Origin: Herbiconiux flava
GTDB taxonomy: Bacteria; Actinomycetota; Actinomycetes; Actinomycetales; Microbacteriaceae
Length of the DNA: 64,000 nt
Assembly (NCBI RefSeq): GCF_013409865.1
Contig: NZ_JACCBM010000001.1
Location: 558,001-622,000 of the forward strand
Reading direction: 5' to 3'
Below are positions 6,466 to 23,927 of the stretch, one piece after another. The notes under the pieces were generated by a model that was not told the origin of the DNA, made no database searches, and worked only from the letters and a program-made list of their open reading frames with translations. The translations under genes were made by a program, and so were the position numbers. Within the stretch, counting starts at the first letter, position 1, and every line of letters starts with the position of its first letter.

Positions 6466-6481
6466 ATGTTTGCGTCAACAT
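6466..6481. promoter_or_regulatory. LacI-type operator, proximal copy
   Basis: Sixteen bases, ATGTTTGCGTCAACAT, form a dyad with 5-bp outer arms ATGTT/AACAT around a central CG. It lies just downstream of the predicted start of transcription of the permease operon. A 14-of-16 match occurs at 23880-23895 in front of the GH30 gene. The likely ligand is the LacI protein encoded from 6567. Confidence 0.75.
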
Positions 6482-6491
6482 GAACGGCACG

Positions 6492-6519
6492 AGCATAACA
6501 TGTTGACGTAACCATGCAA
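6492..6519 (-). promoter_or_regulatory. promoter of the permease/GH51/GH35 operon
   Basis: On the minus strand, a -35-like TTGCAT (6519-6514) and a -10-like TATGCT (6497-6492) are separated by 16 bases. The distal operator fills the spacer and the proximal operator lies just after the start site, a layout that would block RNA polymerase when the repressor is bound. The leader before the first gene is then about 85-90 bases. Confidence 0.6.
6500..6515. promoter_or_regulatory. LacI-type operator, distal copy
   Basis: ATGTTGACGTAACCAT is an imperfect 16-base dyad of the same family as the proximal operator, centred 34 bp from it, about three helical turns. It sits between the predicted -35 and -10 boxes of the permease operon and about 50 bp upstream of the LacI start codon, so it could also serve autoregulation. 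Confidence 0.65.
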
Positions 6520-6566
6520 GCGCCGACGGGGATCGATGCGCTTCGCACCTGTCTTGAGGGGAATCC

Positions 6567-7613
6567 GTGACCGACACGCTGAAGACCGGCCAGCGCCGGC
6601 CGCCGTCGATGGCCGACGTCGCCCAGCACGCCGGCGTCTCGTCGCAGACCGTCTCCCGCGTCTCGAACGGCCTCACCAACGTCGACGAGTCGACCCGCGA
6701 GCGGGTGCTCGCCTCGATGCAGGCCCTCGGCTACCGCCCGAACGGGGCAGCCCGCGCCCTGAAGCGCGGACGCTTCAACAGCATCGGCGTGATCATGTTC
6801 ACGCTCGCGACCTTCGGCAACATGCGCACCCTCGACGCCATCGCCACCGAGGCCGCCAAGGCCGACTACTCGGTCACGCTCATCCCGCTCGCCGACCAGA
6901 CCCTCGGTGCGGTCTCCGGCGCCTACCGTCGGCTGAACGACCAGGCGGTCGACGGCGTCGTCATCGTGTTCGAGGCGCACCTGATCGACCGCGGCGAGAT
7001 CGCGCTGCCGCCGGGCCTGCCGGTGGTGGTCATCGACTCCAACGCGGGTTCCGGATACGCGGTGGTCGACAACGACCAGCTCGAGGGCGCGCGGCTCGCG
7101 ACCCAGCACCTCCTCGACCTCGGCCACCGCCAGGTGCACCACATCGCAGGCCCGACCACCTCGTTCTCGGCGATGCACCGGGTGGACTCGTGGCGCTCGA
7201 CGCTGCGTGCATCCGGAATCGAACCGCCGTCGGTGCACCATGGCGACTGGTCGACCGAGTCGGGCTACCAGATCACGCTCGCGCTGGCCGCCGACCCGTC
7301 GGTGACTGCCATCTTCGCCGCGAACGACCAGATGGCGCTCGGCGCGATGCGGGCGCTGCACCAGCTCGGGCGCGACATCCCGGGTGACGTGAGCGTCGTG
7401 GGCTACGACGACATGGAGGAGGCGCACTCGTTCTGGCCGCCGCTCACCACGGTGCGGCAGGACTTCCACTCGGTGGGGCGGATCGCGATGGAGCGACTGT
7501 TCGAGCAGATCGCGGCCGGGGGGCACTCCTCGCTGGGCGGGGTGACGACGGTGCCGACGGAGCTCGTGGTGCGGGAGTCGACGGGGGCGCCGCGGGGGGT
7601 CTCGGGGTCGTAG
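6567..7613 (+). CDS. LacI-family regulator of the arabinogalactan-type regulon
   Basis: 348-residue LacI/GalR-type repressor. The N-terminal helix-turn-helix (residues about 15-40) reads MADVAQHAGVSSQTVSRVSNG, and the LGYRPNGAARAL hinge segment follows; the rest is a periplasmic-binding-protein-like effector domain with the usual AIFAANDQMALGAM and VSVVGYDD motifs. The GTG start at 6567 has GAGGGGA upstream. It is divergent from the permease operon, and the shared intergenic region holds two matching operators. Similar operators at 23.9 kb suggest it also controls the GH30 gene. The inducer is unknown, probably an arabinose- or galactose-containing sugar. Confidence 0.93.
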   Translation: MTDTLKTGQRRPPSMADVAQHAGVSSQTVSRVSNGLTNVDESTRERVLASMQALGYRPNGAARALKRGRFNSIGVIMFTLATFGNMRTLDAIATEAAKADYSVTLIPLADQTLGAVSGAYRRLNDQAVDGVVIVFEAHLIDRGEIALPPGLPVVVIDSNAGSGYAVVDNDQLEGARLATQHLLDLGHRQVHHIAGPTTSFSAMHRVDSWRSTLRASGIEPPSVHHGDWSTESGYQITLALAADPSVTAIFAANDQMALGAMRALHQLGRDIPGDVSVVGYDDMEEAHSFWPPLTTVRQDFHSVGRIAMERLFEQIAAGGHSSLGGVTTVPTELVVRESTGAPRGVSGS

Positions 7614-7646
7614 TCGCTTCGCGACGAGCAGCCTCAGTCTGGAAGG

Positions 7647-7665
7647 GCGACGTCATCGACGTCGC
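7647..7665. other. short perfect hairpin between two LacI genes
   Basis: GCGACGTC and GACGTCGC form an 8-bp perfect stem with a 3-base loop, 34 bases after the first LacI gene. No T-run follows. It may be a weak terminator or a regulator site for the second LacI gene; the sequence does not decide. Confidence 0.35.
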
Positions 7666-7821
7666 ACCGGCGGGCGCTGCAGCCGCTGCGCACTGGGGCC
7701 GGCGAGCACACGGCAGCGCGGTTATGGCTAGTTTTGAGATGGCCGGTCCGCGGACGGCCGAGCTCAAGGCAGCACGTATCCGGCGCTGCGACTGCAGCGG
7801 AGGCGATCAGGGAGGAGGCCG

Positions 7822-8874
7822 ATGAGCACGCAGAACGGTTCGGTGACGATGCAGGACGTCGCCGCCCTCGCGAAGGTTTCGGTGAAGACCGTGTCGAACG
7901 TGCTGTCCGGCTACGAGCACGTCTCCGCCAAGATGCGCGCGCGGGTGATGGCCGCGGTCACCGAGCTGAACTACGAGATCAACGTCTCGGCGCGCAATCT
8001 GCGCACCGGCCGCACCCAGGTGCTCGGCCTCGCCGTGCCCGAGCTCAGCCAGGCCTACTTCGCCGAACTGGCCGACGCGGTCATCCGGGCCGCCAAGGAG
8101 CGCAACTACACCGTGCTGATCGAGCAGACCACGACCGGTGGGCCCGACGAGATCTCGACGGTGAGCGCGATGCGACGGCACGCGATCGACGGCGTGATCT
8201 TCAGCCCCTTCGCGCCCGAGTCGGGCGATCTGTCGCGGCTCGACCTCGAGTTCCCCGTCGTGGTGCTCGGCGACCGTGACGCCGTGAGCCCCGCCGATCA
8301 CATCACGATGTCGAACGTCGCGGCGGTCAAGGCGGCGACCGACCACCTGATCGAGTCGGGCCGGTCCCGCATCGCCGTGATCGGATCGGACCCGCACGAT
8401 CCCGTCGGCACCGCCGCACTGCGGTTCCGCGGCTACGCCGAGTCGCTGCGGGAGCACGGCCGTGACCTGGTGAGCGACCTCGTCTGCTCGGTGCAGCTCT
8501 GGCACCGCGCCGACGGAGCGGCCGCGGTCGAACGACTGCTCGAGCGCGGCGTCGAGTTCGACGGGCTGGTCTGCTTCAACGACGCGTTGGCGCTCGGGGC
8601 GATGGCCCGGCTGCAGCAGCTCGGCCGACGGGTGCCCGACGACGTCGGCGTGGTCGGCTTCGACGACATCGAGGACTCGCGGTTCTCGACGCCGAGCCTG
8701 ACCACCGTCTCGCCGGGGCGGGAGGAGATCGCGCGCCTGGCGGTCGACACCCTGGTGCGCCGGATCGAGCATCCCGGTCAGCGTGACGTTCCGGTCGACC
8801 TGGCCGTGGGCTACGAGCTGGTGGTGCGCGGCTCCAGTACGCCTCTCTCGGCCGCAAGAGCACCCTCCCGCTGA
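7822..8874 (+). CDS. LacI-family regulator of the second sugar operon
   Basis: 350-residue LacI/GalR-type regulator. Helix-turn-helix residues about 9-30 (MQDVAALAKVSVKTVSNVLSG) are followed by the hinge region and an effector-binding domain ending with typical VGVVGFDDIEDSRF and LTTVSPGREEIARLA motifs. The ATG at 7822 has GGAGG close upstream. It lies directly before, and in the same direction as, a binding protein/permease/glycosidase operon whose promoter carries a perfect 16-bp palindrome at 8925-8940, the probable binding site. It is a paralogue of the regulator at 6567 but has different recognition-helix residues, in line with the different operator. Confidence 0.92.
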   Translation: MSTQNGSVTMQDVAALAKVSVKTVSNVLSGYEHVSAKMRARVMAAVTELNYEINVSARNLRTGRTQVLGLAVPELSQAYFAELADAVIRAAKERNYTVLIEQTTTGGPDEISTVSAMRRHAIDGVIFSPFAPESGDLSRLDLEFPVVVLGDRDAVSPADHITMSNVAAVKAATDHLIESGRSRIAVIGSDPHDPVGTAALRFRGYAESLREHGRDLVSDLVCSVQLWHRADGAAAVERLLERGVEFDGLVCFNDALALGAMARLQQLGRRVPDDVGVVGFDDIEDSRFSTPSLTTVSPGREEIARLAVDTLVRRIEHPGQRDVPVDLAVGYELVVRGSSTPLSAARAPSR

Positions 8875-8891
8875 GCCGAGCCGGAAGCCAC

Positions 8892-8920
8892 TTGACGCCC
8901 CGACCGCGATCGGTTACCGT
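8892..8920 (+). promoter_or_regulatory. promoter of the second sugar operon
   Basis: TTGACG (8892-8897), a 17-bp spacer and TACCGT (8915-8920) form a good vegetative-type promoter in the 129-bp gap between the second LacI gene and the binding-protein gene. The predicted start site falls inside the palindromic operator. Confidence 0.65.
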
Positions 8921-8924
8921 CATT

Positions 8925-8940
8925 TTTACATCGATGTAAA
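8925..8940. promoter_or_regulatory. perfect 16-bp LacI-type operator
   Basis: TTTACATCGATGTAAA is a perfect palindrome lying 4 bases after the -10 box and covering the likely transcription start. Its position and symmetry fit repression by the LacI protein encoded just upstream. I found no second copy by eye. Confidence 0.75.
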
Positions 8941-9003
8941 TTTCATCGGGATCCCGATACCACGCTCCGCAACAAAGTCGTCGGAGCAGATAGCAGGTGC
9001 ACA

Positions 9004-10272
9004 GTGAAGAAGCTGATGATCGCGGCAGCCGCGATCGCCCTCGCCACCGCAGGGCTCTCCGGATGCTCGGCCTCCGGCTCCGAGACCGCAGCCTCCGGTC
9101 CGGTCGAGCTCACGTTCTGGCACGGATACACCGAGGCCGACGGCGACGTGCTCGACTCCATCGTCGACGACTTCAACGCCTCGCAGGACGACGTGAAGAT
9201 CAGCACCGAGACCAAGACCTGGGCGGTCATCGACGACACCCTGCTGCCCGCGCTGTCGTCGGACAGCGGACCGCAGCTGGTCGCCATGCCCGCCGAGCGC
9301 CTTCCGGTGTACGCCTCGAAGAAGGCGCTCGTCGACCTCGACGGCTTCTACGCCTCCGACTCCAGCAACACGGCCGAGCTGAATCCCGAAGCCGTGGCCA
9401 TGGAGACCGTCGACGGCGTGAAGTACGGCGTGCCCACCGGGTTCGTGCCGCTCAGCGTCTTCTACAACAAGGCGCTGCTCGACGCGGCCGGGGTGACCAC
9501 CTTCCCGACCACCTGGGACGAGTGGGTGGATGCGGCCAAGAAGTCCACCATCGACCAAGACGGCGACGGCACCCCCGAGCAGTACGGACTGGTGCTGCCT
9601 GACCACGGGACCGTGGGCAACGGCCTCTGGGCCAGCCTGTTCGAGGGCAACGGCGGTTCCATCACCAGCGAGGACGGCACGGAGGCCACGATCGACTCGC
9701 CCGAGAACGTCGAGACCCTCGAGTACTGGTCGTCGGCCATCAACGACGACAAGATCTCGCCCACCGGTGTCGACGGCATCGGAGCCGACAACCTCTTCAC
9801 CGCCGGAAAGGCCGCGATGCACGTCGGCGGGCCCTGGATGGCGTTCGTCTCGAAGGACGCCGGCATCGACTACGGCATCGCGCCCATCCCGGCAGGCCCC
9901 GAGGCGCAGGTGGCTTCGGCCATCGGCGTGTCCATGGCCGTGACCGCTCAGGCCGACGAGGCCGAGCAGAAGGCGGCCGAGAAGTTCCTCGCCTACTTCA
10001 ACGACAAGGCGACCGCGACCGAGTGGTCGCTCGGCTCCGGATGGCCGTCGCTGCGCACCGACGTGACCGCCGCCGACGTGGCGTCCAACCCCATCGTGGC
10101 CACCCTCACCGAGATCGCTCCCTACAGCCGGGCGCTGCTGCCCGGCGTCGTCCAGAGCACCGACGTGCTGACGGCGGTCGACGAGGCCACGCAGAAGGCC
10201 GTGGCCGGCGGTGATCCCGCCGAGCTGCTGTCTGCAGCCCAGTCCGAGATCGACGGCGCGCTGAGCAAGTAG
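9004..10272 (+). CDS. sugar ABC transporter substrate-binding lipoprotein (second operon)
   Basis: 422-residue family 1 solute-binding protein. The signal peptide MKKLMIAAAAIALATAGLSG ends in the lipobox LSGC, so it should be lipid-anchored outside the membrane. The mature protein starts ELTFWHGYTEADGDVLD, typical of sugar-binding proteins. The start is GTG at 9004 with AGG about 9 bases upstream. It heads the operon of two permeases, a GH1-type enzyme and a GH51 enzyme, so the ligand is probably a plant-derived oligosaccharide. It is only distantly similar to the binding protein at 3136. Confidence 0.92.
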   Translation: MKKLMIAAAAIALATAGLSGCSASGSETAASGPVELTFWHGYTEADGDVLDSIVDDFNASQDDVKISTETKTWAVIDDTLLPALSSDSGPQLVAMPAERLPVYASKKALVDLDGFYASDSSNTAELNPEAVAMETVDGVKYGVPTGFVPLSVFYNKALLDAAGVTTFPTTWDEWVDAAKKSTIDQDGDGTPEQYGLVLPDHGTVGNGLWASLFEGNGGSITSEDGTEATIDSPENVETLEYWSSAINDDKISPTGVDGIGADNLFTAGKAAMHVGGPWMAFVSKDAGIDYGIAPIPAGPEAQVASAIGVSMAVTAQADEAEQKAAEKFLAYFNDKATATEWSLGSGWPSLRTDVTAADVASNPIVATLTEIAPYSRALLPGVVQSTDVLTAVDEATQKAVAGGDPAELLSAAQSEIDGALSK

Positions 10273-10279
10273 CGCGCGT

Positions 10280-10314
10280 CCGGGCACCCGGCCCCCACAG
10301 GGGCGGGTGCCCGG
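10280..10314 (+). terminator. strong intercistronic hairpin after binding-protein gene
   Basis: CCGGGCACCCG (10280-10290) and CGGGTGCCCGG (10304-10314) form a perfect 11-bp stem, and the loop can add a 4-bp CCCC/GGGG stem. It starts 7 bases after the binding-protein stop, has no T-run, and the permease gene follows in the same direction. It likely protects or partly terminates the transcript so the binding protein exceeds the permeases. It mirrors the hairpin at 3096-3128. Confidence 0.6.
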
Positions 10315-10369
10315 CGGCTCCTCCCGCACCCCGGCGCACGCCGCCACCGGCTCGAGAAAGCAGAGCACC

Positions 10370-11320
10370 ATGACCACAACGACGTCGAGACCCGGCCGGC
10401 GCTACCGCCCGCCGGCCCAGCTCGGCGGGCGCGGCCCCGTCGGCGCGACCTTCCGGCGCCGGTTGACGATCGTCGGCTTCCTCGCTCCCGCCCTCGTCAT
10501 CCTGGGTGTGTTCGTCGGCTGGCCGATGGTCTCCGCACTCCGGCTGTCCTTCACCGACGCGAGCGGCTTCGGGCAGGAAAAGTGGGTGGGGCTCGACAAC
10601 TACGTGCGCGTCTTCACCGACTCCGACATCGTGCGGTCGATCGGCAACACCGCGCTCTACGCCGTGCTGTTCACGCCGGTGGCGATCGTGGTGGCCCTCG
10701 TGCTGGCCCTGCTGATCAACAGCCCGCGGCTGCCGTTCCGCGGCTTCTTCCGCACCACGCTCTTCCTGCCCTTCATCGTGTCGCTCGCGGTCGCGGCCTT
10801 CGCCTGGTCGTACCTCCTCGACCCGCAGATCGGTCTGCTCAACTACTGGCTCCAGGCCCTGGGCGTGCGGATCGGCAACGTGCTGCAGGATCCCGTGCTC
10901 GCCATGCCCACCGTCGTGCTCGTCGCCGTGTGGAAGAGCTTCGGCTTCTACATGGTCATCTTCCTCGCCGGCCTGCAGGAGATCCCGACGAGCCTCTATG
11001 AAGCCGCGCAGCTCGACGGCGCCACCGGCTGGAAGCGGTTCACGAACGTGACCTTCCCGATGCTCGGCAACACCATGGCCTTCGTGGGGATCGTGGCCTT
11101 GATCGCGGCACTCCAGGCCTTCGATCAGATCTACGTGCTCACCGGCGGCGGCCCGTACCGCAGCACCCAGACCATCGTGATGGAGATCTACAGCTCGGGC
11201 TTCAAGGACCTGGAACTCGGATTCGCCTCGGCCCTGTCGTACGTGCTGCTCATCGCGACGCTGCTGCTCAGCCTGGTGCAGTTCCTGTTCTTCGGTCGCC
11301 GCGCGGAGTCGGCCTCGTGA
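10370..11320 (+). CDS. sugar ABC transporter permease, MalF type (second operon)
   Basis: 316-residue membrane protein with a basic cytoplasmic N-terminus, six predicted spans and the EAA loop SLYEAAQLDGATGWKRF. The ATG at 10370 with GAGAAAG upstream was preferred to an in-frame upstream start that would sit in the hairpin. Its stop overlaps the GTG of the next permease by four bases (GTGA), so the two subunits are probably made in equal amounts. Confidence 0.92.
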   Translation: MTTTTSRPGRRYRPPAQLGGRGPVGATFRRRLTIVGFLAPALVILGVFVGWPMVSALRLSFTDASGFGQEKWVGLDNYVRVFTDSDIVRSIGNTALYAVLFTPVAIVVALVLALLINSPRLPFRGFFRTTLFLPFIVSLAVAAFAWSYLLDPQIGLLNYWLQALGVRIGNVLQDPVLAMPTVVLVAVWKSFGFYMVIFLAGLQEIPTSLYEAAQLDGATGWKRFTNVTFPMLGNTMAFVGIVALIAALQAFDQIYVLTGGGPYRSTQTIVMEIYSSGFKDLELGFASALSYVLLIATLLLSLVQFLFFGRRAESAS

Positions 11321-12201
11321 GCGCCGTCGTGTCGGCCGCCCGGCCGGTCGAGCGGGATGCGGTGCGCATCCGGGCCCGGCGTCGTGAGCGGGTCATCCGC
11401 TGGTCGTTCTTCGCCGCCTTCCTCGTGGTGACGATCGCCATCATGCTGCCGGTGATCATCATCGTGCTCACCGCCTTCAAGCCGGTCTCGGAGGTGAACG
11501 CGTACCCGCCGACCCTGCTGCCCACGACCTGGACGCTCGACAACTTCGCCACGATCTTCTCCGACCTGCCGTTCCTCCGCCTGATCGGCAACAGCGTGGT
11601 GTTCGCGGGTGGTGTGACGGTGTTCGCGCTGGCGTTCGACTCCCTCGCCGCCTACGCCCTGGCGCGGCTGGACTTCCGGGGCAATCGCGTGCTGCTCGTC
11701 GTGATCATCGCCAGCCTGATGATCCCGTTCCAGGCCACGCTCATCCCGATCTACCAGCTCGTCTCCGATCTGGGCTGGGTGAACACCTTCCTCGGGTTGA
11801 TCGTGCCGCGGGCGGCCGACGCGTTCGGCATCTTCTTCCTGCGCCAGTTCTTCGTCTCGCTCCCGCGCGACCTCGACAACGCGGCCCGGATCGACGGGGC
11901 GTCGGAGTGGCGCATCTTCCGCAGCATCGTGCTCCCGAACGCCGTGCCGGCCCTGCTCACCCTCGCGATCTTCACCTTCGTGAACAACTGGAACGACCTG
12001 CTCTGGCCGCTGGTGTTCACCACCGACTCCGAGATGGGAACCATCACCTCGGGACTGACACTGCTCACCGGCCCCGGCGGCATCATCCCCCAGGGAGTGA
12101 TGATGGCGGGCTCGCTCATCGCCGTGCTGCCACTCGCCGTCATGTTCCTGCTCGTGCAGCGACGCTTCATCGAGAGCGTCGCCAGCACGGGTCTGAAGTG
12201 A
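11317..12201 (+). CDS. sugar ABC transporter permease, MalG type (second operon)
   Basis: 294-residue partner permease. Six spans are predicted, with the EAA loop DLDNAARIDGASEWRIF and a C-terminal LVQRRFIESVASTGLK typical of MalG-like subunits. Translation starts at GTG 11317 inside the end of the previous gene. As in the other two sugar systems here, no ATPase gene follows; glycosidase genes come next. Confidence 0.92.
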   Translation: MSAVVSAARPVERDAVRIRARRRERVIRWSFFAAFLVVTIAIMLPVIIIVLTAFKPVSEVNAYPPTLLPTTWTLDNFATIFSDLPFLRLIGNSVVFAGGVTVFALAFDSLAAYALARLDFRGNRVLLVVIIASLMIPFQATLIPIYQLVSDLGWVNTFLGLIVPRAADAFGIFFLRQFFVSLPRDLDNAARIDGASEWRIFRSIVLPNAVPALLTLAIFTFVNNWNDLLWPLVFTTDSEMGTITSGLTLLTGPGGIIPQGVMMAGSLIAVLPLAVMFLLVQRRFIESVASTGLK

Positions 12202-12238
12202 CCGGCTCCCCCACTCGCACGACAAGAAACGAGCATCC

Positions 12239-13507
12239 ATGAACTGGTTCGACGACGGCCGGCTGCACTTCGCGCTGGGCATCGAGGACACCTTCGTGCC
12301 GCAGTCCCGCCCGGGAGAGCGGGCGATCGACGAGTACGAACTGACCGAGCACTACCAGCAGTACCGCGCCGATCTCGGTCTGGCCAAGGGAGTCGGCGCC
12401 GAGATGGTGCGGTGGGGCGTGCCCTGGTACCGCGTCGCCCCGCAGGCCGGAGCGTGGGACTGGTCGTGGGTCGACCGCGTGATGGACCGCTTCGCCGAAC
12501 TGGAGCTGCGGCCGCTCGTGGATCTGCTGCACTACGGCACCCCCCTCTGGCTGGAAGAGCAGTTCGCGCATCCCGACTACGCACAGCACGTCACGGAGTA
12601 CGGAGCCCGTTTCGCCGAGCGCTACGGCCACGTCGCCACCGACTACACGCCCGTCAACGAGCCGACGATCCACGCCCTGTTCTCCGGCGAGTACGCGTAC
12701 TGGCCGCCGTACCTGTCGGGAGAAGCCGGCTTCACCCGCATCGCGGAGGCGCTCGCCCGGGGGTTCGTCGGCACCCAGCGTGCCATCGCGCAGGTGCTCG
12801 GCGACCGGGCGACCTTCCTGCACGTCGACGCGGGCATGCGCTACACGGGCGCCGTCGACGCCGCCGAGCACGTCGAGACGGTGACCCGCCTGCGCGAGCA
12901 GTCCTTCCTGGTCGAGGATCTCGTCACCGGCCGCGTCGACGCCCGTCACCCCCTGCTCCGCCAGCTCTCTCGGGGCGGGATGTCCGACGCCTCACTGTCG
13001 TGGTTCAGCGAGAACCGGGTGCAGCCCGACGTGATGGGGGTGAACTACTACCCGAGGCATTCCACGGAGGTGTTCGAGGCGGGGGTGCATCACGGTGGGG
13101 GCTTCGCCGACCCGCGTCCGTACCACGACGCCGGCACCGAGGGCCTCGCCGAGGTGCTGCTCGCCTACGCCGCACGCTACGGCGCCCCCGTGATGCTGAG
13201 CGAGACCTGCGTCACCGGAACGCCGACGGAGCGCATCCGCTGGATGGACGAGTCGCTGGCCGAGATCGGACGACTGCGCCGGCAGGGCCTCGCCGTCGTC
13301 GGGTACACCTGGTGGCCGTTGTTCGACATGTACGAGTGGACCTATCGGCACAGCGACGCGCCCCGTGCCGATCACCTCCTCACCATGGGCCTGTTCGACC
13401 TCGTCGAGCAGGCCGACGGCACCCTCGCCCGCCGTCGCAACGCCGTCGCCGACCGCTTCGAGCTGCACGCCACCACCTCCACGGCCCTCCAGACCTCCCT
13501 CGCCTGA
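12239..13507 (+). CDS. GH1-like beta-glycosidase
   Basis: 422-residue glycosidase of clan GH-A most like family 1 (beta-glucosidase/beta-galactosidase). The acid/base motif appears as VNEPTIH (Glu141) and the nucleophile as MLSETCVTG (Glu322); the classical family 1 nucleophile motif is TENG, so this is a divergent member. It is also shorter than the usual 440-480 residues. WWPLFDMYEWTY near the C-terminus resembles the family 1 sugar-binding end. No signal peptide is present, so it should act on imported oligosaccharides. The ATG at 12239 has only a weak purine-rich ribosome site. Substrate (beta-galactoside or beta-glucoside) cannot be read from sequence. Confidence 0.8.
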   Translation: MNWFDDGRLHFALGIEDTFVPQSRPGERAIDEYELTEHYQQYRADLGLAKGVGAEMVRWGVPWYRVAPQAGAWDWSWVDRVMDRFAELELRPLVDLLHYGTPLWLEEQFAHPDYAQHVTEYGARFAERYGHVATDYTPVNEPTIHALFSGEYAYWPPYLSGEAGFTRIAEALARGFVGTQRAIAQVLGDRATFLHVDAGMRYTGAVDAAEHVETVTRLREQSFLVEDLVTGRVDARHPLLRQLSRGGMSDASLSWFSENRVQPDVMGVNYYPRHSTEVFEAGVHHGGGFADPRPYHDAGTEGLAEVLLAYAARYGAPVMLSETCVTGTPTERIRWMDESLAEIGRLRRQGLAVVGYTWWPLFDMYEWTYRHSDAPRADHLLTMGLFDLVEQADGTLARRRNAVADRFELHATTSTALQTSLA

Positions 13508-13538
13508 GACCGGACCCTTGATCAGATCGGACCCCCCA

Positions 13539-15056
13539 ATGCTCGACGCCCGCCTCTCGCTCGACCCGCGCTCCCCGATCGGGACCATCGACCGACGGCT
13601 CTTCGGCTCGTTCATCGAGCACCTCGGCCGGGCCGTCTACCACGGCATCCACGAGCCCTCCCACCCCACCGCCGACGGGAACGGATTCCGGCAGGACGTG
13701 ATCGAGCTCGTCAAGGAGCTCGGCGTCTCGACCATCCGCTACCCCGGCGGCAACTTCGTCTCCGGTTTCCGCTGGGAGGACAGCGTCGGACCGGTCACCG
13801 AGCGGCCCCGCCGCCTCGACCTCGCCTGGCACTCCACCGAGACCAACGAGGTCGGCCTGCACGAGTTCTCGGACTGGCTCGAGGCGGTGGGCAGTGAGCT
13901 GATGCTCGCCGTGAACCTCGGGACCCGAGGCACCGCGGAGGCCCTGGAACTGCTCGAGTACACCAACCTCGCCTCCGGAACGGCCCGCGCCGAAGCCCGC
14001 CGCGCGAACGGACGCGAGGAGCCGTTCGACGTGCGCATGTGGTGCCTGGGCAACGAGATGGACGGTCCCTGGCAGCTCGGCCACTCCTCCGCCGAGGACT
14101 ACGGCAAGAAGGCCGCCATGACGGCGAGCGCGATGCGGTCGTTCGACCCGGACCTGCAGCTCGTGGTCTGCGGTTCGTCGAGCTCCTCGATGCCCACCTT
14201 CGGCGAGTGGGAGCGGGTGGTGCTCTCGCACTGCTACGACGACGTCGACTACATCTCCTGCCACGCCTACTACGAGGAGAAGGGCGACCGCGCGAGCTTC
14301 CTCGCGTCGGGGGTCGACATGGACCGCTTCATCGACGCGGTCGTCGCCACCGCCGACCACGTCAAGGCGGTGCGAGGCAGCAGCAGGACCATCGACCTCT
14401 CCTTCGACGAGTGGAACATCTGGTACAACGAGAAATTCGAGACGGTCGACAAGATCACCGGCGTCGACAACTGGCCGGTCGCCCCCCGGCTCCTCGAGGA
14501 CGAGTACACCGTCACCGACGCCGTGGTCTTCGGCAGCCTGATGATCTCTTTACTGAAGCACGCCGACCGGGTGACCAGCGCCTCCCTCGCCCAGCTCGTG
14601 AACGTGATCGCGCCGATCATGACCGAGCCGGGCGGGCCGGCCTGGCGGCAGACCACGTTCTTCCCCTTCGCCGAGACCTCGGCTCACGCGCGCGGCGTCG
14701 CCGTCGACGTGGCGCTCGACGCGCCCGGCTACGACACCGCCCGCTACGGCACCGTGCCCGTGGTCGACGCGGTCGCGAGCCACGACACAGAGGCCGGCCG
14801 GGCGGCGGTCTTTCTCGTGAACCGGTCTCAGGATGCGCCTCTGCGGGTGTCCGTGCAGCTCGCGTCGGCCCTCGGCGCCATCACGGCGGCCGACGCGGTC
14901 GTGCTGCACGACGACGATCCGATGGCGTCGAACACCCTCGCGCACCCGGATCGGGTCTCGCTGAAGGGCCTCGACGTGCAGGTGGACGGGTCGAGCATCG
15001 TGCTCGAGCTGCCTCCGGTGTCGTGGGCTCGGGTGAGCGTGGTGGTGGCGGGATAG
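13539..15056 (+). CDS. GH51 alpha-L-arabinofuranosidase (second copy)
   Basis: 505-residue intracellular family 51 arabinofuranosidase. Acid/base Glu173 lies in CLGNEMDGPWQ and nucleophile Glu291 in SFDEWNIWY. Residues around both sites are nearly identical to the first GH51 copy, showing paralogy, while the C-terminal beta-sandwich domain is more diverged. The start ATG at 13539 aligns with the start of the other copy; the ribosome site is weak. It is the last gene of the second sugar operon. Having one copy in each LacI-controlled operon suggests the two transporters bring in different arabinose-containing substrates. Confidence 0.94.
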   Translation: MLDARLSLDPRSPIGTIDRRLFGSFIEHLGRAVYHGIHEPSHPTADGNGFRQDVIELVKELGVSTIRYPGGNFVSGFRWEDSVGPVTERPRRLDLAWHSTETNEVGLHEFSDWLEAVGSELMLAVNLGTRGTAEALELLEYTNLASGTARAEARRANGREEPFDVRMWCLGNEMDGPWQLGHSSAEDYGKKAAMTASAMRSFDPDLQLVVCGSSSSSMPTFGEWERVVLSHCYDDVDYISCHAYYEEKGDRASFLASGVDMDRFIDAVVATADHVKAVRGSSRTIDLSFDEWNIWYNEKFETVDKITGVDNWPVAPRLLEDEYTVTDAVVFGSLMISLLKHADRVTSASLAQLVNVIAPIMTEPGGPAWRQTTFFPFAETSAHARGVAVDVALDAPGYDTARYGTVPVVDAVASHDTEAGRAAVFLVNRSQDAPLRVSVQLASALGAITAADAVVLHDDDPMASNTLAHPDRVSLKGLDVQVDGSSIVLELPPVSWARVSVVVAG

Positions 15057-16140: not shown

Positions 16141-16440
16141 CTATCTGCCCGCCACCAGCAGCGCCAGCAGCCCCGCGAGCACCACCGGCACCACCACGAA
16201 CACCATCACCCGCACGAGCGCGCGCGGGCGCGGGCGCCCCGTCGCTCCGCTGCTGCCGACGTGGTAACCGGCCAGCACGATCAGCGGTCCACCCACGAGC
16301 CCGAGGAACGTCGCGGCGCCCGGCGCTGCACCCAGCTGGCCGACGGTGGCGAAGAATCCGAGGGCACCCAGCAGAGCGAGTACGAAGCCCAGCGGCCTCG
16401 CCACGAGGAGCCACCACGGGCGCACCTCGGAATTGCTCAT
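16141..16440 (-). CDS. small membrane protein of unknown function
   Basis: 99 residues with three hydrophobic segments (about residues 11-32, 38-60 and 78-98) separated by a short basic stretch GATGRPRPRA. No family recognised. The ATG at 16440 with GAGGGGA eight bases upstream was preferred over an upstream ATG at 16503. It is convergent with the CPBP protease gene and divergent from the PepSY gene. Confidence 0.65.
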   Translation of the reverse strand: MSNSEVRPWWLLVARPLGFVLALLGALGFFATVGQLGAAPGAATFLGLVGGPLIVLAGYHVGSSGATGRPRPRALVRVMVFVVVPVVLAGLLALLVAGR

Positions 16441-16522
16441 CTGAAACGTCCCCTCGTCGTGTTCATTCAAGCCGAGTGATCGTGCGACCGCCAGGCGGAG
16501 CATGGCTCCGGGGTCGTGGGCC

Positions 16523-17256: not shown

Positions 17257-17267
17257 GGGCGAGACCC

Positions 17268-17326: not shown

Positions 17327-18001
17327 ATGCGCATCCTCGTGATCGACGACGAGCTGAACCTGCTGCGCGCCGTCGAGACCGGGCTCGAGGCCGAGGGCTT
17401 CGCCGTCGACACCGCCACGAACGGCACCGACGGGCTGTGGCTCGCCCGCGAGAACGACTACGCCGCCATCGTGCTCGACATCATGCTGCCGGGCATGAGC
17501 GGATTCCGCATCTGCGCCGAGCTGCGGCGGGCCGGCGACTGGACGCCCGTGATCATGCTCACCGCGAAGGACGGCGACCTCGACCAGGTCGAGGCGCTCG
17601 ACACCGGGGCCGACGACTACCTCACCAAGCCGTTCTCGTTCCAGGTGCTGCTGGCGCGGCTGCGGGCGCTGATCCGGCGCGGCGGGTCCGAGCGGCCGAC
17701 CGTGCTGACCGTCGGCGATCTCGCGCTCGACCCGGCGACCAAGCGGGTCACCCGCGGCGACGTGCCGATCGAGCTGACGACGCGGGAGTTCAGCGTGCTC
17801 GAGTTCCTCGTGTCGCGGGCGGGCGCCGTCGTGTCGAAGCGCGAGGTGCTCGGGGCGGTGTGGGACTTCGACTTCGAGGGCGATCCGAACATCGTCGAGG
17901 TGTACGTGCGGCACCTGCGCAACAAGGTCGACCGGCCGTTCGGGCGCGCGTCGATCGAGACGATGCGCGGGTCTGGGTACCGGGTGGTCGACGATGGGTG
18001 A
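17327..18001 (+). CDS. OmpR/PhoB-type response regulator
   Basis: 224-residue two-component response regulator. The receiver domain (residues about 1-115) has the acidic pocket VIDDE, phosphoacceptor Asp51 in VLDIMLPG, and the conserved Thr and Lys in MLTAKD and TKPF. A winged-helix DNA-binding domain (about 130-222) ends with VEVYVRHLRNKVD and TMRGSGYRVV. The ATG at 17327 has GGAGGGAG upstream. Its stop overlaps a GTG codon in frame with the histidine kinase. The likely target is the PepSY gene, through the direct repeats at 16523. Confidence 0.95.
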   Translation: MRILVIDDELNLLRAVETGLEAEGFAVDTATNGTDGLWLARENDYAAIVLDIMLPGMSGFRICAELRRAGDWTPVIMLTAKDGDLDQVEALDTGADDYLTKPFSFQVLLARLRALIRRGGSERPTVLTVGDLALDPATKRVTRGDVPIELTTREFSVLEFLVSRAGAVVSKREVLGAVWDFDFEGDPNIVEVYVRHLRNKVDRPFGRASIETMRGSGYRVVDDG

Positions 18002-18050
18002 GCGGGCCGGGTCGGGGTACCGGGTGGTCGCCGATGCATGAGCGCGCCGG
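17971..18050. repeat. 40-bp tandem duplication at the regulator/kinase junction
   Basis: Bases 17971-18010 and 18011-18050 match at 35 of 40 positions. The first copy holds the regulator stop and an overlapping GTG; the second copy lies in the kinase N-terminus. As 40 is not a multiple of three, the two copies are read in different frames. It looks like an old slippage or unequal-crossover event. Confidence 0.85.
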
Positions 18051-19539
18051 GTCGACGGATGCGCGGGCCGCCGCTGCGACGGGCCCCCGCCCGGGCGACG
18101 GAACCCGACGGCGCCCGTTCGGGCGGCCCCGTTCGGTGCGGGCGCGCATCACGCTGATCACCACGCTCGTGGTGGCCGTCTCGGCGGGCCTCGGTGGGGC
18201 GGGATTCGCGCTCGTGCTGTCGCAGAGTCTGCTCGACCAGGCGACGACCGCCGCCGAGCTCGAGCTCGACCGGTTCGAGGCCGCGGTCGACACGGGTGGG
18301 CCCGGTTCGCTCGCCGAGCTCGACGGGTACGCCCAGGTCGTGCGCGACGGGGCGGTGGTGGGCGCGACCGACGAGCTCGAGGACGTGGCGCCGCTCGCCG
18401 GGTCCGGCCCCTCCGGCTCCCCCGGCCCGTCGGGCTCGTCCGGCGGTGACGACGACTCGGGCGACGACGATCCCGGGGGCCCCGGCATCACCGGTGACCG
18501 CGGCACGTCCGACGCCGGCGACCTCACCGGGCGGGTGGTCTCGGTGCCGGGCGACGACGACCGCCTCGTGGTCGCGGCGAAGGAGGTCGACGACGGGCTG
18601 CTCGTCGCCGGCGTCGACGACGGGCCGCGCACCGAGGCCGTCGGCACCACGGTCGTTCTGCTGCTCGTCGCCGTGCCGCTGCTCGTCGCCGCCATGGCCC
18701 TCGTGACCTGGCTCGCCGTGGGGAGGGCGCTGCGGCCGGTCGAGCGCATCCGTCTGGACACCGAGCAGGTCACCGCCGCCGACCTCGGCCGCCGCATCGC
18801 CGCTCCCGGATCGGGCGACGAGATCGACCGCCTCGCCCAGACCATGAACCGCATGCTCGAGCGCCTCGACGAGAGCCAGCGCCGGCAGCGCCGCTTCGTG
18901 TCCGACGCCTCGCACGAGCTGCGCTCCCCCATCAGCGCCCTGCGCCAGAACGCCGAGGTCGCGCTCGCCTACCCCGACCGCCTGCCGGTCGAGCGCCTCG
19001 GGCGCACGGTCGCCGAGGAGTCCGCGCGAATGGCCGAGCTCGTCGACGGCCTGCTGCTGCTCGCGCGCGCGGATGAGCGGGGCCTGGTTCCGGATGCGCG
19101 CGACGTCGACCTCGACGACCTCGCCCTCGCCGAGGCGCGGCGGCTCCGCGCGCTCGCTCCCCAGCTCACGGTCGACGCGACCGGCGTCTCGGCAACACGC
19201 GTGCGCGGCGACTCCCGGATGCTCGAGCGAGCCCTCCGCAACCTCGGCGACAACGCGGCGCGGCACGCCCGCGGGCGCATCGCGATCTCGTGCACCGTCC
19301 TCGACGGCGCCGCCGTGCTCACCGTGGACGACGACGGACCGGGCATCCCCCCCGACGAGCGCGAGCGCGTGTTCGAGCGCTTCGTGCGGCTCGACGACTC
19401 GCGTGCGCGCGACAGCGGCGGATCGGGCCTCGGCCTGCCGATCGTCGCATCGATCGCGGCGGCGCACGGAGGCGCGGCCACCGCCACGGCGTCGCCCCTC
19501 GGCGGCGCCCGCCTCGAGCTCCGCCTCCCGCCCGCCTGA
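17998..19539 (+). CDS. sensor histidine kinase
   Basis: Membrane-bound histidine kinase, 513 residues from the coupled GTG at 17998 or 501 from ATG 18034; neither has a strong ribosome site. A first membrane span (about 55-80) leads to an extracellular region with an unusual Gly/Ser/Pro/Asp-rich insert, then a second span, a HAMP domain, and the dimerisation helix with phospho-acceptor His306 in SDASHELRSP. The ATP-binding domain shows LRNLGDNAARHA (N box), DDGPGIP (G1) and SGLGLPI (G2). It works with the response regulator just upstream. The first 12 residues come from the tandem duplication if the GTG is used. Confidence 0.92.
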   Translation: MSGPGRGTGWSPMHERAGSTDARAAAATGPRPGDGTRRRPFGRPRSVRARITLITTLVVAVSAGLGGAGFALVLSQSLLDQATTAAELELDRFEAAVDTGGPGSLAELDGYAQVVRDGAVVGATDELEDVAPLAGSGPSGSPGPSGSSGGDDDSGDDDPGGPGITGDRGTSDAGDLTGRVVSVPGDDDRLVVAAKEVDDGLLVAGVDDGPRTEAVGTTVVLLLVAVPLLVAAMALVTWLAVGRALRPVERIRLDTEQVTAADLGRRIAAPGSGDEIDRLAQTMNRMLERLDESQRRQRRFVSDASHELRSPISALRQNAEVALAYPDRLPVERLGRTVAEESARMAELVDGLLLLARADERGLVPDARDVDLDDLALAEARRLRALAPQLTVDATGVSATRVRGDSRMLERALRNLGDNAARHARGRIAISCTVLDGAAVLTVDDDGPGIPPDERERVFERFVRLDDSRARDSGGSGLGLPIVASIAAAHGGAATATASPLGGARLELRLPPA

Positions 19540-19844: not shown

Positions 19845-22800
19845 TCAGGCGCGGCGGTGCCGGCGGAGGCCGAGGGCCAGGGCGCCGAGGAGCAGCGCCA
19901 GGAGGCCTCCCGCCACGAGCGGCAGCGGGGCCGCGCCGGTCGAGGCGAGGCCGCCGGCGCCCGAGCCGCCGGTCCCGCCCGAACCCGCACCGCCGGAGCC
20001 GGAGCCACCCGAGCCCGAGCCGTCGCCGGGAGCTCCGGGCGCGCCGGGAGTCCCGGGCGAACCCGGGGTGCCCGGGGTGCTGGGGTCGCCGGGCGTCCCC
20101 GGGTCGCCCGGCGTGACCGGCGGGTCGACCGCCGCCGCGATGGCGACGGCTGCCGAGTCCGCCGTCCCCACGCGGTACCCGTCCGCGCCTGCGGTCACGC
20201 GCGCCGAGACGGCGTGGTCCGCGTCGTCCGCGACCGGCGTGTAGCCGGGCGAGGTGGCCCCCGCGATCGGAGCCCCGTCGCGCATCCATTGCACCGACGC
20301 ACCCGCAGCAGCAGCCGCCGGGTCGGTCGTCACGACGACCGAGAGCGGCGAGCCGACGCGGTACGCCCCGTCGATCTGGGTGCCCGAGACCACCGCCGAC
20401 ACCGCGACCGCCCGGTCGAAGCGCACCGTGTAGCTGGTGACGCTCACGCCGTCGGGCGCCGTGACGGTCACGGTCGCGACCGCGCCGTTCGCATCCGTCG
20501 CCGGATCGATGGCCACCGTGGCGTCGGTGTCGACCGCGAAGGCCTGCAGCACCGGGATCCGCGACCCCGACGACGGCACCGTGTACGAGGTGGTCGCCGG
20601 GTCGAAGCCCTCGATCGCGACGCCGTCGACCGCGAGTCGGGCGAGCTGCGACACCGTCGAGACGCCGGCCGCGGTGGCGTAGATCTCCACCTCCGACACG
20701 ATCATGTGCGTGTCGGGCGCCGCCGTCAGTGCGGCCCGCACCGCCGACGCCTGCACGCCGCCGAGGGCGACGTCGACCACGGGAGCGCTTCCGTCGGGCG
20801 AGACGACGGCGGTCGGAGCATCCGGAGCCGCCACCCAGTCACCCGCGGGCGTGCGGTACTCGACGGTCAGCGAGGTCGGCCAGGTCTCGGAGGACCCGTC
20901 CTTCCAGAAGCGCAGCGTGACGCTGTCGACCGTCTTCACCGAGCCGAGGTCGTAGCTCAGCGTGTCGGATGCACGCTTCGAGCTGCTCACCCAGTTCGAC
21001 CAGCCCTTGTCGTCGAGCACGCGGTTGCGGGTGGCGTCGACGCTGTAACCCGGCTCGGTGAAGGTGGCCGAGGCGGTCGTCGCCGCATCCGGGGCCACGT
21101 TCGAGGAGCCCGGCACCGTCACGATCAGCGAGAGCGTCGCGGGCAGAGCCGGCGCCGCGGGGTCGTTGGAGACCGCCTCGCCCGGCACCGTCACCACGCC
21201 GGGTGACGCGAGGTCGGCCTGGTCGACGCCCGAGAAGTCCCAGGCGACGACGGCGTCGTAGCTCGTCTTGCTCGCGCCGATGCGGGCGGGCACGGTGGCC
21301 GGCGCCGCGTCGATCACGCTCTGCAGCTCGGCCCCCTCGTAGGTGGTCAGCGAGACCGGGTCGGTCGACGTGAAGCCGCCGACCTCCACGGTGACGGATG
21401 CGCTGTCGAACGCCGTGCCGAACGCATCCGTTCCCGAACCGGTCACCGTGACGGTGCCGGGCTGGTTCCAGTCGATGCCGTCCGTGTTCCAGGTGACCGG
21501 CACCGCGATGCCGGCGCCCGAGCCGTAGATCGGGGTGACCGTCGCGGGCAGCACCGGGGCGACGCCCGCGACCGTGTTCACCGTGATCGGCTCGAAGCCC
21601 TGCAGCGCCGTGTCGCGGAAGCCCCACGCCTGGTTGGCGCCGTTGTTCGACTGGTAGACGTTCACCGGGGCGCCCTCGTCGGTCGACTGCCCGGGCACCT
21701 CCAGCGCGGTCGCGGTCTGGGCGTTGACCAGGGACCAGCTCGCGCCGGTCGAGGTGGTGAGGATCCACTGGCTCGAGCGGTCGGCCGCGGCCTGCTCGGG
21801 CGTCTGGTCGCGCAGCACGACTCCGTCGGACGTGGCGGCGAGCACCTGGCCGGTCGCGCCCCGGAGCACGTAGCGCTCGGAGTTGCTGAGGCCGTCGGTG
21901 AGCTTGTCGACCGTCCAGAGCTGGCCGGCCGCGTTCTCGGCGGTGGTGGCGGTGATCACCGCGCCGGGCGCCTCGCCGGTCGCGACGGCGCCGTTCGGCG
22001 TCAGGGCCTTGCCGCTCTGCGTGCCGACGATCTGGTAGGCGGAACCGTCCTGAAGGGGGATCGCCGTGTCGGCCACCCCGCTGACACCCGAGATCACGAA
22101 GGTCGACACCGAGCGGGCGGGAACCGTGACGGTGACCGTCTTCGCGGTCGCGTCGACCGGCACCGCCGCGCCCTCGACGAGGGCGTTCGCCGTCACGTCG
22201 TCGGCGGGCGACTCGGTGGTGACGATCGGGGTGAGGGTGGCTCCGGGAGCGATGGTGCCGAACTCCGCCAGGTCGATCGTGACCGTGCGGTCGCTGGTCG
22301 ACGGGTTCGCGTGCACCAGGGTCACCCCGCTGCCGTCGGCCTTCAGGGCAGTGGTGGTCTGCGCATCCGTCGAGGGGATGATGTGGTCACCGGGGCGGAT
22401 GTAGTGCGTGAAGTTGCGGATCGTGTTGTACTTCGCGTTCGTCTCGACCTTGCAGCTCGGGTCGGCGTCGCCGTCGGCGAGGCGCCGCACGCTGTCGCCG
22501 TCGGCGTTGCAGTCGAAGTCGATCTGCACGCTGCCCCAGTTGAGCTTCTCGACCTTCTCCATGTTGTAGGCGTCCTCGACCGGCTGCCAGAGCACCCAGG
22601 CGCTCGGCTCGAGCTCGCGCAGGTCGTCGGTGATGCGGGCGGCGACGCCCAGGCCGTTGGCGATGTTGGTCTGGTTGTTGACACCGGAGCCGTCCCAGTC
22701 GCCCTCGATCTCGCTCATCCAGAGCGGCTTGCCCGCCGCCTTGGCGATGTCGCGGGCGTAGGGGCGGCCGCCGGTGCCGTAGGTGTGCACGTTCAGCTGG

Positions 22801-23858
22801 TCGACCTCGGCCTTGGCCTCGTCGCTCCAGGTGTTCCAGTTGGTGGCGAAGAGGCCGGGGTTCGTCTCGTCCATCGCCGAGATCACGGCGTCGGTGGTCG
22901 TGGTGTCCTCGGCGAGCTCGGCGGCGAGCGCCTTGATGACCTGGTCCTGCACCTCAGGGCCGATGTGGGCACCCTCCTGGCCGCCCTGCTTCGGCCATCC
23001 GGTCGACTCGTCGATGTTGGTGCCCCAGTAGTTCGTGTTGGGCTCGTTGAAGGGGTCGACGGTGTCGAAGCGGATGCCCTCCTGCTCCTCCACGGACTGG
23101 ACCACCGTCTTCAGGTAGGCCACGTAGTCACCGATCGCCTCGGGCTTCAGCTGCTCGGCGCTCGAGTCGAAGCCGCCGGAGACGAAGCCGCTCTCGGTCA
23201 TGAAGTAGGGCGGGGAGTTGTTGAAGGCCTCCCACTTGGTGATGCGGCTCTTCAGCTGCTCGACCCACCAGCGCTGGGTCTCGTCGGCGGTGAAGTCGTA
23301 GGAGGCCGGGTCGTCGGGGTTCCAGGCGGCGGCGTAGCGGTCGCGGTCGGCGTAGTCGGAGGTGATCGGGCCTTCGGCGTCGCTCGCTCGGAGGTCGGGG
23401 TTCCACCAGCCGTCGACCGCTGCGCCCTGGCGGAGGTAGGGAGGGACGTCGGAGGCGTTGCCACCGCCGATGTTGTAGCGGGCGATGTTGAGGTTCAGGC
23501 CGTCTTCGCCGAAGACCTTGTCGAAGAGGTCCTGGCGGACGTCGGCGGGGTAGTCGCCGGTGGCGTTGGCGAACCAGACGAGGCTGGTGCCCCAGCCCTC
23601 GAAGGCCTGGTTCTGGTAGGCGGGGTTGGGGGTGATGGTGAGGGGGGTCGGGGCTGCGGCTGCTTCTTGCGCGGTGGCGGCCTGTGCAGCTGCTTCTTGC
23701 GCGGTGGCGGCCTGTGCAGCTGCGGGCGCCGCTGCCGGGGCTCCTGTGCGTGAGGGCGAGGCGGAGGCCGCGGCCCCGCCGCCGAGCGCCGAGGCGCCGA
23801 GCAGCAGAGCGATCGACCCCGCCACGGCGGCCGTGCGGGCGCGTGACGACGATGTCAT
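19845..23858 (-). CDS. secreted, wall-anchored multidomain GH30 glycanase (endo-beta-1,6-galactanase-like)
   Basis: 1337-residue surface enzyme. Signal peptide about 1-33, then an Ala-rich stretch holding a repeated QAATAQEAA unit. The GH30 catalytic region (about 72-590) contains FEGWGTSLVWFA, LNIARYNIGGGN, the acid/base Glu272 in PFNEPNTNYWG and the probable nucleophile Glu383 in MSEIEGD; this resembles endo-beta-1,6-galactanases of subfamily 5. Further domains: ricin-type beta-trefoil (about 595-750), two Ig-like domains (about 752-918), an F5/8 type C carbohydrate-binding domain (about 920-1065), a cadherin-like/Ig pair (to about 1236), a Pro/Gly linker, then LASTG, a membrane span and RRHRRA, a class E-type sortase signal. 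ATG 23858 has GAAGGA upstream. Substrate specificity is inferred from motifs and context. Confidence 0.88.
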   Translation of the reverse strand: MTSSSRARTAAVAGSIALLLGASALGGGAAASASPSRTGAPAAAPAAAQAATAQEAAAQAATAQEAAAAPTPLTITPNPAYQNQAFEGWGTSLVWFANATGDYPADVRQDLFDKVFGEDGLNLNIARYNIGGGNASDVPPYLRQGAAVDGWWNPDLRASDAEGPITSDYADRDRYAAAWNPDDPASYDFTADETQRWWVEQLKSRITKWEAFNNSPPYFMTESGFVSGGFDSSAEQLKPEAIGDYVAYLKTVVQSVEEQEGIRFDTVDPFNEPNTNYWGTNIDESTGWPKQGGQEGAHIGPEVQDQVIKALAAELAEDTTTTDAVISAMDETNPGLFATNWNTWSDEAKAEVDQLNVHTYGTGGRPYARDIAKAAGKPLWMSEIEGDWDGSGVNNQTNIANGLGVAARITDDLRELEPSAWVLWQPVEDAYNMEKVEKLNWGSVQIDFDCNADGDSVRRLADGDADPSCKVETNAKYNTIRNFTHYIRPGDHIIPSTDAQTTTALKADGSGVTLVHANPSTSDRTVTIDLAEFGTIAPGATLTPIVTTESPADDVTANALVEGAAVPVDATAKTVTVTVPARSVSTFVISGVSGVADTAIPLQDGSAYQIVGTQSGKALTPNGAVATGEAPGAVITATTAENAAGQLWTVDKLTDGLSNSERYVLRGATGQVLAATSDGVVLRDQTPEQAAADRSSQWILTTSTGASWSLVNAQTATALEVPGQSTDEGAPVNVYQSNNGANQAWGFRDTALQGFEPITVNTVAGVAPVLPATVTPIYGSGAGIAVPVTWNTDGIDWNQPGTVTVTGSGTDAFGTAFDSASVTVEVGGFTSTDPVSLTTYEGAELQSVIDAAPATVPARIGASKTSYDAVVAWDFSGVDQADLASPGVVTVPGEAVSNDPAAPALPATLSLIVTVPGSSNVAPDAATTASATFTEPGYSVDATRNRVLDDKGWSNWVSSSKRASDTLSYDLGSVKTVDSVTLRFWKDGSSETWPTSLTVEYRTPAGDWVAAPDAPTAVVSPDGSAPVVDVALGGVQASAVRAALTAAPDTHMIVSEVEIYATAAGVSTVSQLARLAVDGVAIEGFDPATTSYTVPSSGSRIPVLQAFAVDTDATVAIDPATDANGAVATVTVTAPDGVSVTSYTVRFDRAVAVSAVVSGTQIDGAYRVGSPLSVVVTTDPAAAAAGASVQWMRDGAPIAGATSPGYTPVADDADHAVSARVTAGADGYRVGTADSAAVAIAAAVDPPVTPGDPGTPGDPSTPGTPGSPGTPGAPGAPGDGSGSGGSGSGGAGSGGTGGSGAGGLASTGAAPLPLVAGGLLALLLGALALGLRRHRRA

Positions 23859-23879
23859 GGGAGTCCTTCGTTGGAGTGC

Positions 23880-23895
23880 CTGTTTGCGTGAACAT
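23880..23895. promoter_or_regulatory. LacI-type operator upstream of GH30 gene, proximal copy
   Basis: CTGTTTGCGTGAACAT differs at only two of 16 positions from the operator at 6466-6481. It overlaps the -10 box and start site region of the GH30 promoter, so the LacI protein encoded at 6567 probably represses this gene too. Confidence 0.72.
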
Positions 23896-23923
23896 TGTGA
23901 CACCCCCCGTTGTGGTCACGCAA
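23894..23923 (-). promoter_or_regulatory. GH30 gene promoter
   Basis: On the minus strand TTGCGT (23923-23918) and CACAAT (23899-23894) are 18 bp apart. Both boxes overlap the two operators. The predicted leader is short, about 30 bases, and contains the GAAGGA ribosome site. Confidence 0.5.
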
Positions 23924-23927
23924 ACAT
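23912..23927. promoter_or_regulatory. LacI-type operator upstream of GH30 gene, distal copy
   Basis: Read on the minus strand, ATGTTTGCGTGACCAC matches 12 of 16 bases of the operator at 6466-6481. Its centre is 32 bp from the proximal copy, against 34 bp for the pair at 6.5 kb, so both promoters share the same tandem layout. Confidence 0.65.

Follow-up and report, generated by a model that had tools for sequence, protein, structure and literature searches.

Related Regulons and the Locus Under Study

Regulons in which a LacI-family protein controls sugar genes are well known as a kind and belong to ordinary bacterial gene control. According to the main text of PMC4052901, the operators of LacI regulators are even palindromes with a central CG, lie mostly 30–140 bp ahead of the start codon and show intersite distances that peak at 13, 22, and 32 bp. 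Here, we describe a putative regulon of this type in Herbiconiux flava, a bacterium of the soil- and plant-associated kind, found within a stretch of 64,000 nucleotides (positions 558001–622000 of G000:C1, in a genome of 3.85 Mb; hereafter the window). It would join the operon of an ATP-binding cassette (ABC) sugar importer with a gene for a galactanase of glycoside hydrolase (GH) family 30 that is located 17 kb away. Our analysis indicates that LacI1, a regulator encoded beside the operon, is very probably the local repressor of both promoters in this genome.

The sites in the window resemble the operators of the local sugar regulons in PMC4052901 in being even 16-bp palindromes with a central CG, arranged in tandem. 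The pairs described below are 32–37 bp apart, and those ahead of the GH30 gene in 15 of 22 loci of relatives are 14 bp apart; the published intersite peaks therefore fit both the window pair and the 14-bp pairs of Microbacterium. The terms “micrococc,” “microbacter,” and “galactan” are all absent from the main text of that paper.

Several bifidobacterial systems are similar in part. GosR, a GalR-type regulator of a galactan regulon in Bifidobacterium (PMC4746261), is likewise an actinobacterial regulator tied to galactan use, but it concerns different genera and “gh30” is absent from the main text. In Bifidobacterium breve, the LacI-family regulator BgaR stands beside an enzyme for arabinogalactan-derived galacto-oligosaccharides (PMC7533333); unlike the regulon proposed here, the cluster as described comprises three genes (a GH2 enzyme, the regulator, and a symporter) without a surface galactanase. 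The roles of GH30 and GH43_24 enzymes in arabinogalactan use are described in passages of PMC7889515 and PMC8424115. As proposed for our system, the galactanases of Bifidobacterium longum act on type II arabinogalactan or on the beta-1,6-galactan in it, with GH43_24 as an exo-beta-1,3-galactanase and the GH30 enzyme Bl1,6Gal as an exo-galactobiohydrolase (PMC7889515). In contrast to Bl1,6Gal, the GH30 protein of the window has an endo-enzyme as its nearest match and includes lectin and anchor-like regions, and those passages of PMC7889515 describe no operator link for the B. longum galactanases. Within the titles and abstract openings of the open-licence PubMed Central literature, we found no account of this group of regulators, of its motif, or of the galactanase as its target, and a search of that literature gave no paper on Herbiconiux and arabinogalactan.

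Four Putative Operator Sites at Two Promoters

LacI1 (6567..7613, plus strand, GTG start at 6567) is divergent from the minus-strand permease operon. It carries an N-terminal LacI helix-turn-helix and a sugar-binding domain (Pfam LacI, Peripla_BP_3, and Peripla_BP_1), and its nearest named relatives are two Herbiconiux records with 95 and 94% identity. The permease operon is preceded by a proximal site, ATGTTTGCGTCAACAT (6466..6481), and a distal site, ATGTTGACGTAACCAT (6500..6515); the GH30 gene is likewise preceded by a proximal site, CTGTTTGCGTGAACAT (23880..23895), and a distal site, GTGGTCACGCAAACAT (23912..23927). LacI1 is the probable owner of all four. The sequence-only reading had placed the dyads at these positions, with spacings of 34 bp at the operon and 32 bp at the GH30 gene, start to start, and with proximal copies that differ at 2 of 16 bases; all of this was confirmed. 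The sites are even palindromes around a central CG, placed at sugar-gene promoters, and their symmetry is imperfect: by hand count, 6, 6, 5, and 4 of 8 pairs are complementary, in the above order, the distal GH30 site being the weakest.

The imperfection of the two GH30 dyads (5 and 4 of 8 pairs) could suggest that all four matches in this noncoding DNA arose by chance. However, the pattern TGTTTGCGTSAACAT with up to three mismatches matched the window four times, precisely at the four sites, whereas 0.48 matches were expected and no more than two were reached in 100 shuffles. An independent 16-bp matrix, derived from orthologs outside Herbiconiux (30 distinct 16-mers; consensus ATGTTTACGTAAACAT), ranked the four sites first to fourth in the window, with 29.6 and 28.1 bits at the operon (proximal and distal) and 21.3 and 21.1 bits at the GH30 gene; the next score in the window was 14.3 bits, and the best among 20 random 64-kb sequences was 15.0 bits. 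The dyads are also conserved across genera, and both GH30 sites have aligned counterparts in G012 and G010. A chance origin was rejected on the shuffles and the matrix ranking, and we consider its probability close to nil.

The motif is rare in the whole genome as well. Exact matches to TGTTNRCGYNAACA (hereafter exact sites) number two, one at each promoter, and four of the five matches with up to one mismatch are the sites described here. The fifth (G000:C1:1393011) scores 3.2 bits by the matrix and lies inside an open reading frame (ORF).

Co-occurrence of the Putative Operators with LacI1

Relatives were compared in a genus sample of 16 genomes and a family sample of 120 genomes, the latter with complete per-genome site counts. 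The LacI1 search in the genus (E 1e-60) gave matches in 13 of the 16 genomes, with a best identity of 58–100% in eight and 41–44% in five. Exact sites occur in all eight genomes with a LacI1 ortholog of 58% identity or more, and the remaining eight genomes have none. They number 12, of which eight precede LacI1/permease (in the window’s genome and seven further ones), three precede a GH30 gene, and one precedes a GH43 gene.

At the family level, 36 of the 120 genomes were positive for LacI1 (E 1e-80). An exact site was present anywhere in 34 of these 36 genomes, as against 18 of the 84 without LacI1 (Fisher P 2e-14, uncorrected for kinship). LacI1 genomes contained 66 sites versus one match of the reversed-pattern control, whereas the other 84 genomes contained 21 versus 23. 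In 31 of the 36 genomes, an exact site was located no more than 300 bp upstream of LacI1, that is, at 25 of the 27 promoters scanned and additionally in G000, G003, G005, G019, G035, and G067.

The same arrangement was found in the fetched loci. Tandem sites 33–35 bp apart stand ahead of LacI1/permease in all 33 orthologous loci (L009–L041), and none of the eight remaining loci with LacI relatives (26–33% identity) has such sites. Throughout the 638,513 bases of L009–L041, exact sites were encountered only before LacI1/permease, before GH30 or, once, before a second GH30 gene. Among 60 LacI1 promoters, 49 have two sites, 10 have one, and one has none, with a spacing of 32 to 36 bp; in the single-site group, the second site of L126 falls outside the 300-base scan, and the sole site of L145 carries one mismatch. 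The operator is therefore conserved together with the regulator in the genus, in the family, and in the orthologous loci.

Furthermore, site variants are closer to each other within a genome than between genomes (mean best distance 0.83 vs. 1.51; permutation P 0.0002). This test covered nine chosen genomes and sites with at most one mismatch; GH30 genes without a site of their own, G012 (near-identical to G000), and G086 (without a separate operon site) were left out, and Microbacterium was represented by one typical site set.

Operators Ahead of the GH30 Gene in Relatives

GH30 is present in three of the 16 genus genomes, and each of the three has a site pair 32 bp apart upstream of it. In 22 of the 33 orthologous loci, the fetched sequence includes a GH30 gene after LacI1, in every case with an exact site in the 400 bases ahead of it: 15 have two sites 14 bp apart, one has an additional site with one mismatch at a distance of 42 bp, and six have a single site. 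In the family sample, GH30 was found in 12 genomes, all of them among the 36 with LacI1 (hypergeometric P 1e-7, uncorrected for kinship), and eight of the 12 have an exact site before the gene. In G123, one contig carries GH30 and LacI1 at a distance of 414 kb, and this genome has just two exact sites, one before each of the two genes.

The GH30 sites of the window lie in an intergenic region shared with a divergent arginase-family gene (24030–24947), approximately 100–150 bp from its start, and might accordingly serve that gene or both genes. However, the query gene upstream of GH30 in relatives is LacI1, in the 22 loci and additionally in G064 and G086, and the sites stay with GH30; the arginase query matched none of these loci. 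Service to the arginase-family gene was therefore rejected, and we hold it to be highly improbable.

It may also be supposed that GH30 is under a different LacI-family protein and that the two site pairs are alike because related paralogs use related operators. Candidates exist: a second LacI-family gene, LacI2, adjoins LacI1 (7822–8874), the genome encodes another LacI at 42% identity, and 18 of the 84 family genomes without LacI1 hold exact matches to the motif. Against this, the genus has zero exact sites in genomes without a LacI1 ortholog, and LacI1 is directly before GH30 among the query genes in 22 of the 22 loci with both. Control by the neighboring LacI2 was rejected, as its recognition stretch (VKTVSN, compared with SQTVSR in LacI1) differs and its operon has a different, perfect palindrome. 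A paralogous owner of the GH30 sites is thus unlikely. The proposal of the sequence-only reading that the single LacI protein encoded at 6567 serves both promoters gains comparative support from the co-occurrence of the sites and of GH30 with LacI1, the sites before GH30, and the within-genome similarity of the sites.

In Microbacterium and its kin, GH30 adjoins LacI1 and has one or more sites of its own. In G010, the reading frames of GH30 and LacI1 are convergent, with approximately 110 bases between their ends. In the window, 12.2 kb separate the end of LacI1 (7613) from that of GH30 (19845), and without this DNA the layout would be that of G010. The corresponding gap in G012 is approximately 12.7 kb; its blastn comparison with the window gave a match from approximately 16.5 kb to GH30 and none from 7.6 to 16.5 kb, i.e., different DNA stands beside LacI1. 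In this comparison of positions 7614–16521 of the window with G012 (L084/L085), both flanks match at 91–96%. The spot beside LacI1 is perhaps a site of repeated cargo exchange, and we infer an insertion-prone spot there as the simplest reading of the 17-kb separation.

GH30 thus occurs at the operon end, beside the regulator in either orientation, or 17 or 414 kb off. We lean somewhat toward viewing it as a movable part of a fixed LacI regulon, which, outside the operon, mostly keeps its own operator, tuned to the local LacI.

Promoter Layout and Proposed Mode of Control

A block, CTTGCATGGT...AACATGTTA, is found at the operon promoter in eight genus genomes, with TTGCAT in 8/8 and TATGCT in 6/8. 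Following sigma-70 logic, we take TTGCAT-16-TATGCT (6492..6519, minus strand) to be the probable promoter. A strict sigma-70 consensus scan returned zero promoters at the permease operon or at GH30; the element is called a promoter because of its conservation in the genus and not by the consensus scan. The distal operator sits in the promoter spacer and touches the −35 edge, and the proximal operator is located just past the predicted transcription start, which would be the layout expected for repression. Some LacI-family proteins activate transcription, and LacI1 might likewise act as an activator at one or both promoters; however, an operator that overlaps the conserved spacer and another past the predicted start form a repressor layout at the permease operon, and we regard activation as very unlikely.

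At the GH30 gene, the operator pair lies approximately 30 and 60 bp ahead of the start codon. With 37 bp in one GH30 pair (in G059), spacings vary from 32 to 37 bp, and a fixed helical phase as a defining feature of the operator pairs was rejected. The promoter may determine the spacing no less than dimer contacts do. TA-rich elements like that of the operon promoter were also seen directly after the distal operator in many other LacI1 promoters, by eye and uncounted.

According to the repression model that we favor, LacI1 dimers would occupy the pair of 16-bp operators at each promoter, and an oligosaccharide that contains galactose or arabinose and derives from type II arabinogalactan would release them from both. 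This release would raise surface GH30, the ABC importer, and internal GH51 and GH35 together. Surface GH30 would then cut arabinogalactan into pieces that the importer takes up, so that cutting would be tied in trans to import and debranching.

Enzymes and Predicted Substrate

The GH30 gene (19845..23858, minus strand) encodes a predicted protein of 1337 amino acids with a signal peptide, the GH30 domain, ricin-type lectin, Big_4, and F5/8C regions, and a C-terminal LASTG-type tail. Its ATG start at 23858 has an aligned ATG in two relatives. The catalytic domain matches Glyco_hydr_30_2 with 50.1 bits (cut-off 27), and the closest solved structure is 24td, a “Secreted endo-beta-1,6-galactanase” (E 2.1e-37), to which the NEP and SE regions were aligned; these regions presumably hold the catalytic glutamates. 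The N-terminal signal peptide and the C-terminal LASTG-hydrophobic-basic, wall-anchor-like tail were recognized by eye. The abstract of PMC12751061 names the GH30_5 subfamily for endo-beta-1,6-galactanase. The protein is nearest to an endo-enzyme and is a predicted endo-beta-1,6-galactanase, with endo and exo action indistinguishable by sequence. The earlier suggestion of an outside galactanase agrees with this match to a secreted enzyme, together with the signal peptide and the LASTG tail.

The permease operon, on the minus strand, begins with ABC permease 1 (5490..6398, Pfam BPD_transp_1, ATG start at 6398); an alternative ORF in a different frame (5485–6405) had zero profile matches. It is followed by ABC permease 2 (4568..5488, BPD_transp_1; a mechanical ORF, the real start of which may be internal), the sugar-binding protein of the importer (3136..4560, SBP_bac_1 and SBP_bac_8), a GH51 alpha-L-arabinofuranosidase (1436..3022, NCBIfam ArfA 629 bits, just above the cut-off of 625), and a GH35 beta-galactosidase (1..1443, 623 amino acids), which extends approximately 430 bases past the left edge of the window and the full ORF of which (L092:9572–11443) matches Glyco_hydro_35 with E 1.9e-111. 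Inspection of the GH51 and GH35 N-termini by eye revealed no signal peptide, and the proposed debranching inside the cell fits both enzymes. Across the 33 orthologous loci, both permeases and the binding protein were present in all, GH35 in 32, and GH51 in 31; the locus without GH35 (L038) stops in GH51 at a contig end.

Genes for a predicted galactanase, arabinofuranosidase, beta-galactosidase, and importer are thus present in the window’s genome, and their putative shared control is read from the sites. Taken together, GH30, GH51, GH35, and the GH43 targets in relatives point to type II arabinogalactan as the predicted substrate. A GH43_24 exo-beta-1,3-galactanase was not found in the window’s genome at E 1e-10, in a search made without a positive control.

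Several observations weigh against the proposed regulon and have to be set beside the above evidence. The dyads at GH30 are weaker than those at the operon, and the GH30 upstream region shows no clear −10/−35 elements; NCBIfam gives for the GH30 protein weak matches far below the cut-off, to xylanase and endo-1,6-beta-glucanase models. The exact sites in genomes without LacI1 are at about the control level, and the motif alone names no owner. The 300 bp upstream of LacI1 are free of exact sites in G043, G076, G077, G086, and G110, of which G043 and G076 carry a one-mismatch site there. Four family genomes have no site, even with one mismatch, before GH30. In two of them (G057 and G128), GH30 follows GH35 in the operon direction, and in G054 it is downstream in the operon direction after a gap of approximately 2.5 kb; in G043, GH30 is approximately 8 kb from GH35 and the absence of a site is unexplained. 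Finally, kinship among the genomes and overlap between the samples make the P values overstate independence; judged by length, L009, L010, and L011 are identical to contigs G012:C1, G003:C10, and G005:C4, and some of L120–L146 may coincide with L009–L041.

Further Sites and Neighboring Genes

Exact sites were also found before other genes. A further exact site in G010 has a one-mismatch neighbor 18 bp on and precedes a protein that matches galactan 1,3-beta-galactosidases of known structure, and in G129 an exact site stands ahead of a related GH43. Both are secreted proteins resembling GH43 exo-beta-1,3-galactanases (L173 5933–9711 and L167 4297–7182). Through these sites, the regulon may also reach the beta-1,3-galactan backbone. 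They belong to eight extra exact sites of LacI1 genomes that were viewed, three in G129, two in G122, and one each in G019, G115, and G010; further extra sites, e.g., in G059, G099, G104, G105, and G077, are outside this set. Near the other six there was no query gene except a LacI with 35% identity at the edge of one (G129). In L030 (15557–18078), a second GH30 galactanase copy follows the first and has its own exact operator. Seven Microbacterium loci share a recurring one-mismatch site, TGTTCACGATAACA, that stands some way off from LacI1 (L016 2221, L018 2079, L019 691, L021 953, L023 828, L028 398, and L036 2049).

LacI2 is followed by its own ABC importer operon, a GH1/GH42-like gene, and another GH51 (above the ArfA cut-off), and this block (7822–15056) is probably a separate arabinoside or galactoside regulon. 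The perfect 16-bp palindrome TTTACATCGATGTAAA (8925..8940), before the binding-protein gene of the LacI2 operon and outside the LacI1 regulon, is likely the LacI2 operator, judging by its position. Between this second operon and GH30, genes for an Rce1-like CAAX protease (15109–16053) and a HAMP histidine kinase (17437–19539) were noted.

Conclusion

The comparative data uphold the promoter link over 17 kb, which had been proposed solely from 16-bp dyads. Type II arabinogalactan is the glycan of plant arabinogalactan proteins, and our analysis provides a concrete candidate regulon for it in a large family of actinobacteria, many members of which are plant-associated. The analysis also predicts which sugar-releasing surface enzymes would be switched on with which importer. 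If GH30 is indeed a movable part of this regulon, with an operator matched to the LacI of its genome, the regulator and its sites would drift together in each genome, and the sites of many species would serve as ready data on the recognition specificity of LacI proteins.

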